Below, piece after piece: positions 41,232 to 62,257 of a stretch of 64,000 nt of DNA. Source of the stretch: Roseofilum acuticapitatum BLCC-M154 (GTDB taxonomy: Bacteria > Cyanobacteriota > Cyanobacteriia > Cyanobacteriales > Desertifilaceae). The notes under the pieces are model-generated. The model had not been told where the DNA came from, did not search any database, and saw nothing but the letters and a program-made list of their open reading frames with translations. The translations under genes were made by a program, and so were the position numbers. Location of the stretch: positions 62,001 to 126,000 of the forward strand of contig NZ_JAQOSP010000116.1 of NCBI RefSeq assembly GCF_030068475.1, read 5' to 3'. Each line of letters starts with the position of its first letter. Position 1 is the first letter of the stretch.

Positions 41232-41385
41232 ATGCTCAAGAATGATAAGTGGATTGCAGAACAAGCCCAAAAGGGGATGATCGACCCGTTTGAGCCTGCA
41301 TTAATTCGGGCGATCGAAAAAGAGGAGGAATTGACGAGAAAAGTTCTAAGCTACGGAGCCTCTTCGTATGGGTATGATATCAGAT
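41232..41385 (+). CDS. dcd: dcd exon 1
   Basis: It encodes [20 protein letters not shown] through SYGYDIR, plus the first base of a Leu codon. Beyond 41385 the frame reads [10 protein letters not shown] and stops, which is intron sequence. Confidence 0.92.
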
Positions 41386-44300
41386 GTGCGACTCGTTCCT
41401 GTCAAATGAGCAACTAGGCTCAGGGAAACAGGGCATTGTGTTCATAAATGTTAAGGATTCAATGAATCTTTACATTAGTGATTTCACAATGACAACTTAG
41501 TATCCATAGAGGTGAGTCGATTAAAGACAACCCCTCTCGCCAAGGTACATGGTTGAAAACACTTCCCCAACTCAGGAGACTGGTCATCAACTGGGTTGAA
41601 GCGGGAAGGAATGTTGGTAACTTCAAACCCGATGAGGAACCCCAGCTAGTAGGTTAGCCATGAGTAGGAAACGAACTTCTGTTTAACCCATCGTCACGTA
41701 GAAGTAGCCAAAACGGGTTGATAGGCTGCGAGACAAAAGTCAATAGAGTAAAAAGGATGAAGGGGTGTCGGATCTCTTCATTTGTACCCAAAGAACTCTC
41801 GGTGGAAAGGAAGACTCTAAAGCTAACGAAAAATGGATACTAGGAACGAGGTAATCACTTATGTTTCTCTCAACCCAGGTCGAAAGTTGAGTAGTAACCA
41901 GCGCAAGGACATAAGTGACAGGATTGAGTCAAAAGCGAAAGCCTCTCTGTAATGGAGATGGATAGGCTGACAGACTCACGAAAACTTGGAAGATAAAGTC
42001 ACAAGTAACAGTGTATATGTTATGAACCCAGTCAATCTGAGGTATAAATGGAGCGACATCCCCTGGAGACAAATCGAGAGGATGGTGTTCAAGCTGCAAA
42101 AGAGAATTTATCAAGCTAAAAGTAGTGGAAACGTCAGATTAGTTCGCCGACTCCAAAAACTGCTAAGTAAGTCCTGGTCAGCTAAATTGTTGGCAACGAG
42201 AAAAATTACCCAAGATAATAGGGGTAAGAAAACAGCAGGGATAGACGGAGTTAAATCTGTTGACCCTCGCAAAAGACTTGAACTCGCCAATAATATTAAG
42301 CTAGATGGAAAGGCTAAACCGGTAAGAAGAATCGAGATTCCCAAACCTGGAAAAACAGAAAAAAGACCTCTAGGAATTCCTACTATTGAAGATAGGATAA
42401 AACAAACTTTGGTCAAATTCACTCTGGAACCAGAATGGGAAGCGGTATTTGAACCCAATAGCTATGGATTCAGACCAGGTAGAGGTTGCCATGATGCTAT
42501 AGAGGCAATATTCAACGCAGTCAGGTATAAGCCGAAATATGTGTTGGATGCAGATATAGCCCAATGCTTTGACAAAATAGACCATGACAAGCTATTAGAA
42601 AAGATCGATACTTATCCTTCCCTAAGAAGGCAGATAAGGTCTTGGCTTAAGGCAGGCTTCATGTCCCAAAAAGAATGGTTCCCCACGGACGAAGGAACCC
42701 CTCAAGGGGGAGCAATATCCCCGCTCCTGGCAAACATCGCCTTACACGGGATGGAAAACAGGATTAAGGAATTTGCAACAACCCTGAAGGGAACAAACAA
42801 CCTGAATCTAAAGGAAATCCAACTGATCAGATACGCAGATAATTTTGTGGTTTTACACAAAGATCTAGAGGTCATTAAAAAGTGTAAGACAATCATCTCG
42901 GAATGGTTAAAGGAAGTGGGACTAGAGATCAAACCTGAAAAGACGAGTATCACCCATACCCTAGAAAAACACGAAGGTAAAGTGGGATTTGACTTTCTAG
43001 GGTTTAATGTCAGACAGTACAAACATGGCGTACACTCCAGTGGTAAAAATACCCAGGGTACACCCAAGGGATTCAAAACCATTGTGAAACCCTCTAAAGA
43101 AAGCATCAAGAAGGTATATAGAACCTTAGCCAAGGAAATTGAGAAACATAGAGCCGTCAAACAGGAGATTCTAATTAAAAGAATCAACCCGATAATACGA
43201 GAATGGTGTAACTATTACTCGACGACCTGCGCTAATGATGCTTTCTCCTTAATACAATACTTACTGTTTTGGAAGTTGAAAAGATGGGGATTCCACAGAC
43301 ATCCCAACAAAACCTCACAATGGATTAATGCCAAATATTGGTTCCAAAGAGGGGATAATAAATGGGTGTTCGGAGTTAAAGACATCTGTGAACTAATCGA
43401 CCCTAGATATACAGAGATTAAACGGCACACAAAGGTCAGAGGTAACGCCTCCCCTTTTAATGGAGAAGACACCTACTGGGCAACCAGATTAGGTAGACAT
43501 CCCGAAATGCCCAATAGAATCTCAATGCTTCTTAAAAAGCAGAAAGGGAAATGTAATATCTGCGGGTTAACATTTAAAGACGGTGACGTAATGGAAGCTG
43601 ACCATATCATATCAATTCCGGATAAAGGGTGAAGAAGCGGGCAAGATGCCCACACTCCTCTAATCCCTTGATATTGCTGGAGTGGGAGCGTCTCGCTCCC
43701 TAAGTTTTTAATCATGGTATTTCCGCTTCGCGGACACGAACAATCGGACTTGATATCATTCCGAAATCCAAAGGAGGAAGGAATGATTACAAAAATGTCC
43801 AATTAATACACGGTCACTGTCACGACGTTAAAACATACTTAGACTTTAGTGCTAATGACAATAGCCAAGTTTTTGAGGAGCCGGATGAGGCGAAAGTCTC
43901 ATGTCCGGTTTTGAAGACGAGTTAGAAGGGTGACCTTCTAGCTTAGTTTAACTAAGCCCTAAAGAATTCCTGATCTTTAAGCACATTCCTGGTACAGTCG
44001 TCGATCCGAAAAATTTTAATCCCGACAACCTCGAATCTGTTCCCCTGCACCAGGATGAACAGGGAGACTTTTTTATCATTCCCGCCCACAGCTACGGCTT
44101 AGGGGTTGCTTTAGAGCGTCTAGAGGTTCCGCCCAATATCACTGTCATTTGTTTGGGTAAATCCACATATGCTAGATGCTCGATTATCCTGAATGCGACC
44201 CCCGCAGAAGCCTGTTGGCGCGGTCATCTCACCTTAGAATTATCTAATTCTTCGAGTGCTGACTGTCGGGTTTATGCGAATGAGGGGATTGCCGTGTGAT

Positions 44301-46840
44301 TCGTTCAGTACAAAAGTAGATAGGGCAACCTTGAAACGTGGTACTGGCAAGGGTTACGACCCTTGACAACTGAAAGATTGTTCCCAATCGGTGGGAGCGT
44401 CTGGACTCCACTCTCAATAAAAAGAGAGTAGACGACAGGACAACACCCCTAGTTCTGAGACTCATTATCAAAGGATTAAAGCGGGGTGTAACGGGAAACC
44501 TGACTCTAGCCAAAGGGTTAAAATGTATCCCAAGTCAACTAGCAATGGTGAGCGAAAGCGAACTACTGGATGGAACCTTCAATACCTCAAAGCGGTGAAA
44601 TAGGCTGATACACCGCGTCCAAAAGGACATAGGGAATAGATAGGCGTATGGCAATGCGACCTATTAAGGAGTCCCAAAAGTATCTTGGGGGAGAGGTAGC
44701 ACCTAAAGTTAGATAACCCAATCTTTCGGAACGAATTAATCCCATAGATTCTCCTGCATAAAGGTCGGTGAAGCAGGTAGTGACAAATGTAAGCGCAAGG
44801 TCTATGGGGGTGAGATGGAGTAAGAAGCAAATGCCCATTTGTAATGAATGTGGATAAGCTGACGTACTCCGGCTTAGTCAAAATGTAGAGTGGTAAATAG
44901 TGATGAATACGCCAATAGCGAGTTTAGAGACTACGAACAATGGATGGAATACAACCCCCTGGAAGAAAGTACAGAGGAAAGTGTTCAAGTTGCAAAAGTC
45001 AATCTACAAAGCGGTTAAATCGGAACAGTTTGCTAAAGCTAGGAAACTCCAGAAAATCCTTTCAAAGTCATACTACGCTCGACTCTTAGCAGTTCGGAAA
45101 GTATCACAAGATAACCCAGGAAAGAAAACCGCAGGTATTGATGGGGTCAAAGCCATCACGCCTAAGCAAAGACTGGAATGGGTTGACGAACTGAGAAACG
45201 TCTACAAAGCTAAACCGCTCAGAAGGGTATGGATTCCCAAACCTGGAAGAGAAGAAAAGCGACCATTAGGCATTCCAACCTTAAGAGATAGAGCAATGCA
45301 AGCCGTGGTCAAACAAGCGCTTGAACCTTACTGGGAAGCTAGATTTGAAGGCACGTCCTACGGATTTAGACCGGGTAGATCAGCACAGGACGCTATAGCG
45401 CAAATCTTCACAAAGATTAATCATCAACCCTGTTATGCACTGGATGCTGATATTGCTAAGTGTTTCGACAAAATTGACCATAGCAAATTGCTGTCCAAAT
45501 TAGAATGTCCACAATCCCTGAAGCGGCACATCAAAGGCTGGTTAAAAGCAGGAGTAATGGACAAAGGCGTATTTGAAAACGTGGTAACAGGGACACCGCA
45601 AGGTGGAGTTATATCACCCCTGTTAGCAAACATCGCGTTGGATGGAATGATTGAGGACATAAGGGACTTATTCCCGAATTTTATGGTAAAAAACGGGAAA
45701 GGAAACCAGAAATACAAGCCAAAAATCATCAGATACGCCGATGACTTCGTTATTCTGCACAAGGATATCGAAGTCATTCAACAATGCAAGGTTGCCATTT
45801 CCAACTGGTTATCGCAAGTTGGACTAGAACTCAAACCGGAAAAAACTCGAATCTGTCATACGTTAAACCCAATTAACGTAAATGGGAAAGAGGAACAACC
45901 CGGCTTCGATTTCCTAGGATTCAATGTGCGGCAATACAAGGTTGGAAAGTATAAAGGAGGCAAAAGTGGTGGGACAAATTCTAGAGAGCTAGAGTTCAAA
46001 ACCATAATCAAACCTTCAGAAAAGGCAATCAAAGCCCACAGGGAAGCGGTGAAAACGGTCATTATCAACCATAAAACAGCACCTCAATCCGCACTCATAA
46101 AGCACTTAAACCCGGTTATACGAGGGTGGTGCAATTATTATAGTGGAGTCGTATCTAAGGATGTGTTTGCTTATGAAGACAACATTACTTGGTCAAGACT
46201 AAGGGCATGGACAGTAAGCAGAACGGGGAAAGCTAACGCCCAAAAGCTGAGGAAATACTTCAGTCATGGGAAAAACGGAAAATGGACGTTTCAGACAAGA
46301 GAAGAGGGTTTACGCCTGTTAACTCACGCGGAAACGCCCATCAGACGACATACAGCAGTTAAAGCAGACCAATCCCCTTATGACGGAGACTGGATATATT
46401 GGAGTAAACGTAGAGGTAAAGACCTGGATACCCCCACGAGGGTAGCCAAACTCATGCAAAAACAAGAAGGCAAATGTAACCATTGTGGGCTGTACTTCAC
46501 GGATACAGACCTAATTGAAGGCGATCGCATCATCCCAAACGCTAATGGTGGAAAGGATGAATATAAAAGTCTTCAATTGTTGCATAGGCACGCTTCACGA
46601 TTATGAAACTTCCAGAGATGGAAGTCTAAACCGTACCAATGACAAGGATTGACTAAGTTAGGAGCCGGATGAGGTGAAAGTCTCATGTCCGGTTCTGAAT
46701 GGGAGGGGGAGATGGTAACGTCTCTCTCGACCCCTAATCAATTGTTATTTTTTGAAGGAGAACCCTGTAATGTCACGTATCAAGACCGGTTAGGTAAGTA
46801 TCAGGATCAAACCCACCAAGTGGTTTTGCCGAAAGTGTAA
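41232..46840 (+). CDS. dcd: dCTP deaminase, interrupted by two group II introns
   Basis: Joining 41232-41385, 43953-44293 and 46739-46840 gives 597 bases with no stop until the final TAA, i.e. 198 residues, the usual length. The product converts dCTP to dUTP, supplying thymidylate synthesis. Exon-joining restores SYGYDIR|LSPKEF across junction 1 (the Leu codon is split T|TA) and [16 protein letters not shown] across junction 2, both as in intact homologues. Catalytic-region motifs GKSTYARC and the Glu in HLTLELSN are intact in exon 2. Expression needs splicing of both introns. Confidence 0.92.
42022..43632 (+). CDS. Intron-1 reverse transcriptase/maturase, HNH domain split
   Basis: The 536-residue frame starts at ATG 42022 ([15 protein letters not shown]). 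Reverse-transcriptase blocks are clear: [56 protein letters not shown]. The catalytic box reads RYADN instead of RYADD (42832-42843), losing a metal-binding aspartate. Domain X (maturase) looks intact ([13 protein letters not shown]). The C-terminal HNH zinc finger begins ([21 protein letters not shown]) and then stops, where a repeat cluster is inserted. It could still aid splicing, but reverse transcription and DNA cutting are probably lost. Confidence 0.9.
   Translation: MNPVNLRYKWSDIPWRQIERMVFKLQKRIYQAKSSGNVRLVRRLQKLLSKSWSAKLLATRKITQDNRGKKTAGIDGVKSVDPRKRLELANNIKLDGKAKPVRRIEIPKPGKTEKRPLGIPTIEDRIKQTLVKFTLEPEWEAVFEPNSYGFRPGRGCHDAIEAIFNAVRYKPKYVLDADIAQCFDKIDHDKLLEKIDTYPSLRRQIRSWLKAGFMSQKEWFPTDEGTPQGGAISPLLANIALHGMENRIKEFATTLKGTNNLNLKEIQLIRYADNFVVLHKDLEVIKKCKTIISEWLKEVGLEIKPEKTSITHTLEKHEGKVGFDFLGFNVRQYKHGVHSSGKNTQGTPKGFKTIVKPSKESIKKVYRTLAKEIEKHRAVKQEILIKRINPIIREWCNYYSTTCANDAFSLIQYLLFWKLKRWGFHRHPNKTSQWINAKYWFQRGDNKWVFGVKDICELIDPRYTEIKRHTKVRGNASPFNGEDTYWATRLGRHPEMPNRISMLLKKQKGKCNICGLTFKDGDVMEADHIISIPDKG
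43622..43748 (+). repeat. Repeat cluster inserted in the intron-1 HNH region
   Basis: About 125 bases separate the two halves of the HNH motif. They hold the hairpins GGGCA-AGA-TGCCC (43640-43653) and GGGAGCG-TCT-CGCTCCC (43684-43700), and a mini-hairpin TCCGC-TTC-GCGGA (43720-43740). Confidence 0.75.
43720..43740 (+). repeat. Mini-hairpin repeat, copy 4
   Basis: tttccgcttcgcggacacga: stem TCCGC-TTC-GCGGA, with CACGAA in place of CATGAA. It lies inside the HNH insertion. Confidence 0.5.
43749..43925 (+). pseudogene. Detached HNH C-terminal part of the intron-1 protein
   Basis: In a different frame this reads [28 protein letters not shown] and then [16 protein letters not shown]-stop. That is the expected end of a cyanobacterial group II intron HNH domain. 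Removing the insertion would restore the frame to the preceding gene. Confidence 0.75.
43878..43911 (+). ncRNA. Domain V of group II intron 1
   Basis: GAGCCGGATGAGGCGAAAG ... CATGTCCGG is the 34-base domain V hairpin with GAAA tetraloop; it is the catalytic core of the ribozyme. Confidence 0.8.
43953..44293 (+). CDS. dcd: dcd exon 2
   Basis: It encodes the second and third bases of a Leu codon, [18 protein letters not shown], the catalytic stretch GKSTYARC, and ends YANEGIA. 341 bases, in phase with exon 1 and exon 3. Confidence 0.92.
44903..46606 (+). CDS. Intron-2 reverse transcriptase/maturase, HNH domain defective
   Basis: The 567-residue frame starts at ATG 44903 ([15 protein letters not shown]). 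Blocks [42 protein letters not shown] and [14 protein letters not shown] are intact, and the catalytic box is RYADDF. Domain X ([14 protein letters not shown]) is present. In the HNH domain the expected Asp-His is Asp-Arg ([12 protein letters not shown], 46517-46534) because the codon is CGC inside a GCGATCGC octamer. Eight residues after LLHRH the frame shifts and ends (ASRL-stop). It may still act as maturase and reverse transcriptase, but not as an HNH nuclease. Confidence 0.9.
   Translation: MNTPIASLETTNNGWNTTPWKKVQRKVFKLQKSIYKAVKSEQFAKARKLQKILSKSYYARLLAVRKVSQDNPGKKTAGIDGVKAITPKQRLEWVDELRNVYKAKPLRRVWIPKPGREEKRPLGIPTLRDRAMQAVVKQALEPYWEARFEGTSYGFRPGRSAQDAIAQIFTKINHQPCYALDADIAKCFDKIDHSKLLSKLECPQSLKRHIKGWLKAGVMDKGVFENVVTGTPQGGVISPLLANIALDGMIEDIRDLFPNFMVKNGKGNQKYKPKIIRYADDFVILHKDIEVIQQCKVAISNWLSQVGLELKPEKTRICHTLNPINVNGKEEQPGFDFLGFNVRQYKVGKYKGGKSGGTNSRELEFKTIIKPSEKAIKAHREAVKTVIINHKTAPQSALIKHLNPVIRGWCNYYSGVVSKDVFAYEDNITWSRLRAWTVSRTGKANAQKLRKYFSHGKNGKWTFQTREEGLRLLTHAETPIRRHTAVKADQSPYDGDWIYWSKRRGKDLDTPTRVAKLMQKQEGKCNHCGLYFTDTDLIEGDRIIPNANGGKDEYKSLQLLHRHASRL
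46596..46652 (+). pseudogene. Out-of-frame HNH tail of the intron-2 protein
   Basis: One base extra between the last histidines shifts the frame. In the next frame the sequence reads [18 protein letters not shown]-stop, the expected HNH continuation (HCHD...K). Confidence 0.7.
46662..46695 (+). ncRNA. Domain V of group II intron 2
   Basis: GAGCCGGATGAGGTGAAAG ... CATGTCCGGTTC, the same hairpin as in intron 1 with two changes. Confidence 0.8.
46739..46840 (+). CDS. dcd: dcd exon 3
   Basis: It encodes [19 protein letters not shown] to the C-terminal VVLPKV-stop, the end of dCTP deaminase (34 codons with the stop). Confidence 0.92.
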   Translation, partial: QLLFFEGEPCNVTYQDRLGKYQDQTHQVVLPKV

Positions 46841-61825: not shown

Positions 61826-62257
61826 ATGTTAGAGCAGTTTAAGATTACTTACGATCGCCTGTCTTTAGAGGAAGTGTATCATTTAGCCGAAGATCCTGGC
61901 AATGGGGCGATCGCCTTGATGAGTGGTATGGTTCGCAATCAGACTGAAGGTAAACCGGTGATTGCCCTAGATTATCAAGCCTATGAACCGATGGCCCTAG
62001 AAGTCTTTAAGCAGATTGCCCAACGGATTCATCAAGCTTATCCTACCGTTAATCGAGTCGTGATTCACCATCGATTGGGATATTTAGAAATTGGTGAAGT
62101 GAGTGTGATTATTGCTGTGGGTAGTCCCCACCGTGCCGAAGCCTTTGCTGCTTGTCAGTATGCCATTGATGCGCTCAAGGAGGATGCGCCCATCTGGAAA
62201 CATGAATGTTGGGCAGATGGGACACAAAGTTGGGTGAAACCGTCAGTGAGGCTTTAA
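61826..62257 (+). CDS. moaE: Molybdopterin synthase catalytic subunit
   Basis: The 143-residue protein has the MoaE pattern: GAIALMSGMVRNQTEGKPV, ALDYQAYEPMA, VIHHRLGYLEIGEVSVIIA and the catalytic Lys in ALKEDAPIWKHE. It uses sulfur from MoaD to form the dithiolene of molybdopterin. The start is ATG 61826; the preceding GTG is part of GTGATG. moaD is not adjacent. Confidence 0.96.
   Translation: MLEQFKITYDRLSLEEVYHLAEDPGNGAIALMSGMVRNQTEGKPVIALDYQAYEPMALEVFKQIAQRIHQAYPTVNRVVIHHRLGYLEIGEVSVIIAVGSPHRAEAFAACQYAIDALKEDAPIWKHECWADGTQSWVKPSVRL

Follow-up and report, generated by a model that had tools for sequence, protein, structure and literature searches.

The dCTP deaminase gene dcd of the cyanobacterium Roseofilum acuticapitatum BLCC-M154 is split into three exons by two group II introns. 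The gene lies in a stretch of 64,000 nucleotides (positions 62,001 to 126,000 of contig NZ_JAQOSP010000116.1, forward strand; hereafter the window). We compared the genome that carries the window (G000; 5.2 Mb in 154 contigs, 99.84% complete) with five other genomes of the genus (G076, G034, G127, G057 and G093), which gave a genus set of six. The exons listed in Table 1, when joined, form 597 nt with an open frame of 198 codons and a stop. Intron 1 divides a Leu codon (T/TA, the slash marking the site of insertion) and intron 2 is placed between codons 165 and 166. The spliced product matched the Pfam family DCD (PF22769) with 80.9 bits (cut-off 27) over residues 4–171 of 198, the profile covering all three exons, and it was 93–96% identical over the full 198 aa to the Dcd proteins of the intronless orthologues in G076, G127 and G034. 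In the nucleotide sequence of dcd from these three genomes both sites were empty and carried no scar. In neither intron does the opening base equal that of the following exon, or the closing base that of the preceding exon, so that the intron boundaries are unique; the GUGYG 5′ and AY 3′ termini sit exactly at the boundaries given by the empty sites. A sequence-only reading of the window had claimed that removal of two introns restores an uninterrupted 198-codon dCTP deaminase, that the first junction splits a Leu codon, and that both introns start with GTGYG, end with AY and contain a domain V hairpin. Its coordinates proved exact, the spliced frame confirmed the split codon, the termini are those of Table 1, and the hairpins were borne out by the covariance-model check described below. 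Taken as a whole, we consider it very probable that dcd is expressed by splicing of two introns, of which intron 1 is ancestral and kept by means of its maturase and intron 2 came later. Both introns would have to leave the transcript for Dcd to be made, and splicing would proceed via catalysis by domains V and VI and lariat formation, with the help of a maturase.

An artefact of assembly would be an extremely improbable source of this arrangement. Suspicion might fall on a miniature inverted-repeat transposable element (MITE)-like repeat, since several contigs start with copies of it and a copy also lies within intron 1. However, in two other genomes a single uninterrupted orthologous intron aligns with the two halves of intron 1, and the boundaries are exact. 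No near-identical second copy of intron 2 was found in the genome, so repeat-driven misassembly at intron 2 is unlikely.

Table 1. Exons, introns and intron features of dcd (positions are those of the window)
Feature	Position	Strand	Characteristics and evidence
dcd exon 1	41232..41385	+	51 codons and base 1 of codon 52; spliced frame, empty-site comparison
Group II intron 1	41386..43952	+	2567 nt, GTGCG...AAC; RF00029, spliced frame, orthologues, fold
Candidate EBS2 of intron 1	41583..41587	+	GTCAT; by eye; opposite exon bases -12 to -8 (ATGAT)
Candidate EBS1 of intron 1	41767..41773	+	GTCGGAT, hairpin loop; 6/7 pairs with last 7 bases of exon 1
Intron 1 protein	42022..43632	+	RVT_N, RVT_1, GIIM; YADN for YADD; C-terminal HNH-like part shortened by insert
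MITE-like repeat	43606..43754	+	149 bases, within HNH-like part of intron 1 protein; imperfect inverted ends
Domains V and VI of intron 1	43876..43952	+	bulged A at -8 from 3′ end; RF00029, fold
dcd exon 2	43953..44293	+	341 nt; spliced frame, empty-site comparison
Group II intron 2	44294..46738	+	2445 nt, GTGTG...AAT; RF00029, spliced frame, fold
Candidate EBS2 of intron 2	44461..44466	+	CTCATT; by eye; opposite exon bases -15 to -10 (AATGAG)
Candidate EBS1 of intron 2	44650..44655	+	GGCAAT; 6/6 Watson-Crick pairs with last 6 bases of exon 2 (ATTGCC)
Intron 2 protein	44903..46606	+	RVT_N, RVT_1, GIIM; YADD; HNH-like part with R for H, altered C-terminus
Domains V and VI of intron 2	46660..46738	+	RF00029, fold
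dcd exon 3	46739..46840	+	33 codons and stop; spliced frame, empty-site comparison

The ribozyme parts of both introns were recognizable. The Rfam family RF00029 matched at the two 3′ ends with 56.7 and 59 bits (cut-off 40), and the matches to SECIS_5 and Plastid-petD obtained in the same search were below the cut-offs of those families. The bulged A in domain VI of intron 1 lies where the branch point is usually located. Domain V also matched the plastid family RF04357 above that family's own cut-off. Together with the cyanobacterial host and with the C-terminal part of the intron proteins, which we take from its motif to be HNH-like, this suggests the IIB/chloroplast-like (CL) class. Introns of class CL2 are described in a passage of PMC4424553 as nearly restricted to cyanobacteria. 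A large domain I fold is conserved in both introns. When the 5′ part of intron 2 was aligned with nine relatives (nine of the twelve loci L123–L134; L126 was left out for an unclear start and L129 for a wrong start, and L133 was also left out), the consensus fold contained 114 pairs, and in 80 of them both sides have changed with pairing preserved. Of these 114 pairs intron 2 itself makes 101, seven of the nine relatives form more than 105, and the other two form 104/108 and 82/108. The introns 1 of G000, G057 and G093, analysed together with a further group II intron from contig C6 of G000 that lies in the leader of rne, gave a consensus of 157 pairs, with two-sided pair-keeping changes in 52; intron 1 of G000 forms 156 of them. 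Candidate exon-binding sites (EBS) were located for both introns (Table 1). Pairing of EBS1 with the intron-binding site IBS1 was complete for intron 2 (P = 0.003 over 6 bases, 0.02 over 7) and for intron 1 of G057 (7/7 pairs, P = 0.004). At exon position -5, opposite intron 1, a C:G pair in G000 and G057 is replaced by G:C in G093, a two-sided change of exon and intron; one of the five candidate EBS2 pairs of intron 1 is broken in G093.

The exons of dcd are under strong purifying selection. The ratio of non-synonymous to synonymous substitution rates (dN/dS) was 0.04–0.07 between G000 and the four relatives with unsaturated synonymous divergence (dS), and 0.03–0.07 among all pairs with a computable value. 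Exon 3, which is downstream of both introns, differed from that of G076 by eight synonymous changes and one non-synonymous change. Only one dcd was found when the G000 genome was searched; a second intact copy had been named in advance as one of two observations that together would speak against the spliced gene. No match to dUTPase (PF00692) was obtained in any of the ten genomes of the family, with a control search that was positive in 11 of 14 named genomes, Synechococcus elongatus included. Three of those ten genomes (G110, G147 and G148) gave no match to this dcd either, so some relatives manage without both. Because the dcd with the introns is the only one detected, no dUTPase was found and the exons are under purifying selection, both introns presumably splice in vivo. 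The alternative that dcd is a pseudogene, with inefficiently splicing introns and exons that are mere relics, is very unlikely given this selection, the conserved ribozyme folds and the failure of our searches to find another dcd or a dUTPase in the genome. It could draw on the MITE-like insert in intron 1, on the damage to the HNH-like part of both intron proteins and on the mismatch between EBS1 and IBS1 of intron 1 in G000 (6/7 pairs; P = 0.06 over 7 bases, 0.19 over 6). This mismatch is also one of several points that weigh against our reading of two functional, spliced introns. In G093 the same pairing has two mismatches (5/7; P = 0.58, 0.31), and the EBS1–IBS1 test is weak, because the nine relatives of intron 2, used as a positive control, gave P values of 0.08–0.51 over 6 bases and none under 0.05, the best EBS1 match lying at the loop offset of intron 2 in six of the nine. 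The consensus-fold pair counts of both introns were obtained without a shuffled control, and should intron 2 be of very recent origin, part or most of the selection seen in the exons would be older than the intron.

Intron 1 was found at the same site in three of the six genus genomes (G000, G057 and G093) and is precisely missing from the other three (G076, G034 and G127). The sequence-only reading had proposed a search of cyanobacterial dcd genes for the two insertion sites, and that comparison was made; the reading itself had missed that intron 1 is common to two other members of the genus and lacking in close relatives. Intron 1 of G000 matched that of G057 at 85.6% over the main aligned stretch and that of G093 at 79.6%. 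G057, a carrier, and G076, a non-carrier, are close sisters (dS 0.17–0.18, support of 100). Between G000 and G057 the dS of the intron 1 protein was 0.78 (dcd exons 0.59, ComEC 0.61, rne 0.64), a divergence of the intron that appears roughly as under vertical descent. The tree of the intron 1 protein, G093,(G000,G057), is without conflict with the species tree, where G093 is also set apart. With G093 as outgroup, an ancestor that had the intron calls for two losses, provided that G034 and G127 form a sister pair (88/91 in the dcd tree), and an ancestor that lacked it calls for three gains. Losses fit better on this count, and the genus ancestor probably already had intron 1 at this site, from which two or more lineages then lost it precisely.

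Separate gain of intron 1 by G000, G057 and G093, or its transfer into them, seems to us rather unlikely. Homing directs group II introns to fixed sites, and the patchy distribution, including the absence from G076, the sister of G057, is what such gains could produce. They would also agree with the dS of the intron 1 protein to G093, which at 1.61 (G000) and 1.17 (G057) is lower than the 1.98–2.54 of ComEC and rne, all these values being near saturation. Against them stand the compatibility of the protein tree with the species tree, the closeness of the G000–G057 intron divergence to that of host genes, and a YADN motif, common to the intron 1 proteins of G000 and G057 (see below), that is predicted to block self-retrohoming. 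Descent from a genus ancestor with repeated loss, which we prefer, has its own difficulties. With the low dS to G093, at values near saturation, a later exchange of intron 1 with the G093 lineage is conceivable. The fork between G000, G034, G127 and G057 with G076 is poorly supported, the long branches of G093 and the outgroup meet, as a warning of the tool indicated, and gain and loss are inseparable from the tree alone. In addition, G057 is a metagenome assembly.

The proteins encoded by both introns scored above the Pfam cut-offs for RVT_N, RVT_1 and GIIM, and a Pfam search gave no match to HNH. We compared 49 intron proteins, with identical ones merged, L149 and L198 left out for lack of a usable protein and residues counted by alignment column. 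The motif YADD was present in 47 of them, that of G093 included, and YADN solely in intron 1 of G000 and G057. The aspartate replaced in YADN binds catalytic metal in reverse transcriptases (RTs), from which we predict that the YADN proteins have no RT activity. The intact set of a mobile intron was found in neither case, since intron 1 combines YADN with an interrupted HNH-like part and intron 2 keeps YADD with a damaged one. The YADN motif, the MITE-like insert near the C-terminus of the intron 1 protein and the C-terminal damage of the intron 2 protein had all gone unseen when the window was first read. The MITE-like repeat is not in intron 1 of G057 or G093. Among the 50 matches to this repeat listed for G000, 41 (the window copy included) span at least 123 bases; the 40 others of that length are 90–98% identical, several of them being at contig starts.

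Between the two YADN proteins of G000 and G057, dN/dS was 0.09 over the whole protein and 0.07 in both the RT part and the maturase part. Provided that both inherited the change from a common ancestor, the whole divergence between these two proteins is younger than the change. Synonymous and non-synonymous changes assigned to single branches numbered 58:7 for G000 and 37:11 for G057 (14:1 and 6:0 in domain X), in counts that are restricted to codons shared by the two remaining sequences and hence favour conserved sites, which lessens their weight for the reading advanced here. These counts stop before the MITE-like repeat, and values for the end of the G000 protein were not used, because its last residues derive from the inserted repeat. 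The intron 1 protein thus measured is under purifying selection, which is what a maturase retained for its role in splicing should show, and we propose that, being predicted to lack reverse transcription, it would have been retained by selection in this role. On the more specific history, in which intron 1 is a bacterial instance of the organellar condition, has occupied the same position in a single-copy gene, immobile, ever since the genus arose, and encodes a protein that lost RT catalysis and was selected purely as a maturase, with exact losses elsewhere, our judgement is evenly divided.

It is also conceivable that the intron 1 protein is decaying and that another maturase, such as that of the intron in the rne leader, helps in trans. 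The rne-leader protein is 59% identical to the intron 1 protein of G093, has YADD and keeps an uninterrupted C-terminal motif, and introns that rely on other factors are described in a passage of PMC4424553. We judge trans help to be unlikely, because the intron 1 protein has been under purifying selection after the YADN change and because the rne-leader intron is missing from G057, itself a carrier of intron 1.

Neither intron is a copy of the other. A branch that separates their proteins in a quick tree has a support of 100 in the Shimodaira–Hasegawa-like approximate likelihood ratio test (SH-aLRT), and the closest relatives of the intron 2 protein are 66–67% identical to it. Intron 2 was found in only one of the six genus genomes, G000, where the protein next most similar to its own is 54% identical. 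Intron 2 is probably a later arrival, restricted to the G000 lineage, and would have come presumably by retrohoming to ATTGCC/CAATTG. Across G000, with 150 of 289 first-look candidates scored, RF00029 matched three introns above the cut-off, the two in dcd and the one in the rne leader; two weaker RT matches (C39 and C87) gave no RF00029 match among the candidates scored. The third intron is 2.4 kb long, encodes a YADD protein and lies on the reverse strand of contig C6 (437–2813), directly upstream of rne, which encodes RNase E. Its site is empty in the other five genus genomes, the intron being limited to G000 within the genus. In the order search the 3.8-Mb genome G016 gave more than 240 first-look candidate proteins of group II introns, nine of which were scored, possibly a case of massive intron proliferation.

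A match to this dcd was obtained in 89 of the 147 genomes of the order and in at least 155 of the 386 of the phylum. Among the matches listed, group II introns in dcd were recognized only in the three carriers within the genus. In 14 other cyanobacterial genomes (L162–L175) dcd contains in-frame inserts at three further sites: nine are at STYAR/C, a tenth (L175) is placed there by its downstream junction, three are before STYAR and one is further downstream. Four of the in-frame inserts were tested with profiles; three matched Intein_splicing and one matched only LAGLIDADG_3. From the two intron sites and the three sites of in-frame inserts, it appears that inserts of self-splicing type have entered dcd at five sites in the cyanobacteria compared. 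Truncated matches to dcd were seen in G066 and G070 (order search) and in G315 and G185 (phylum search), and a second, partial dcd with a stop is situated about 10 kb from the intact gene in one genome (G128:C99:35067-35252). A passage of PMC6293099 describes a self-excising intein in the dCTP deaminase of cyanophage CL131 (ORF069) and mentions "intron-containing" dCTP deaminases in two bacteria, from Proteobacteria and Chloroflexi, which may be introns or inteins. The Roseofilum gene is similar to that phage gene and to the 14 cyanobacterial ones in having been invaded by self-splicing elements, whereas the splicing described for such inserts is, where shown, at the protein level, and the insertion sites are different.

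Bacterial genes with several introns are already known. The ribonucleotide reductase gene of Trichodesmium erythraeum reportedly contains three group II introns and four inteins, to judge by the title of a report of Liu and colleagues from 2003. It resembles dcd as a cyanobacterial gene of nucleotide metabolism with several group II introns; it is nevertheless another gene, and dcd has two introns and no intein, the first of these introns being common across the genus and encoding a YADN protein. The newer part of the present case is the long residence of an intron with a YADN maturase. Splicing was demonstrated, according to a passage of PMC4649490, for the Trichodesmium twintron Tery_4732, in which the introns are nested, whereas those of dcd lie side by side with exon 2 between them. 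By title, none of the open-licence papers listed reports an intron in a bacterium's own dcd, and none on introns in a Roseofilum genome was found; passages of PMC2814812, PMC12702839 and PMC5894124 had no bearing on dcd. The condition of intron 1 is apparently better known from chloroplasts than from bacteria, matK being a name that goes with the organellar-type introns. Passages of PMC4424553 state that most bacterial group II introns are outside housekeeping genes, although some have entered them, notably in cyanobacteria, that immobile derivatives are apparently short-lived in bacteria, and that organellar-type introns are vertically inherited, immobile, located in housekeeping genes and often furnished with degenerate proteins. 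As far as those passages go, intron 1 has the look of a counter-example among bacterial introns and is like the organellar-type introns in its constant site across species, in a predicted RT-dead protein under selection and in its probable losses. It differs from them in residing in a bacterial chromosome and in having a protein that is still intron-encoded, with full RT and X domains.

If the more specific history of intron 1 also holds, the only detected dCTP deaminase of G000 depends on two separate maturases. The genus offers a built-in comparison of three carriers of intron 1, of which two have YADN and the third YADD, and three relatives from which the intron is precisely absent. Intron 1 would thereby allow a direct test of the passage from a mobile intron to a resident that only splices, a proposed step toward organellar and spliceosomal introns.

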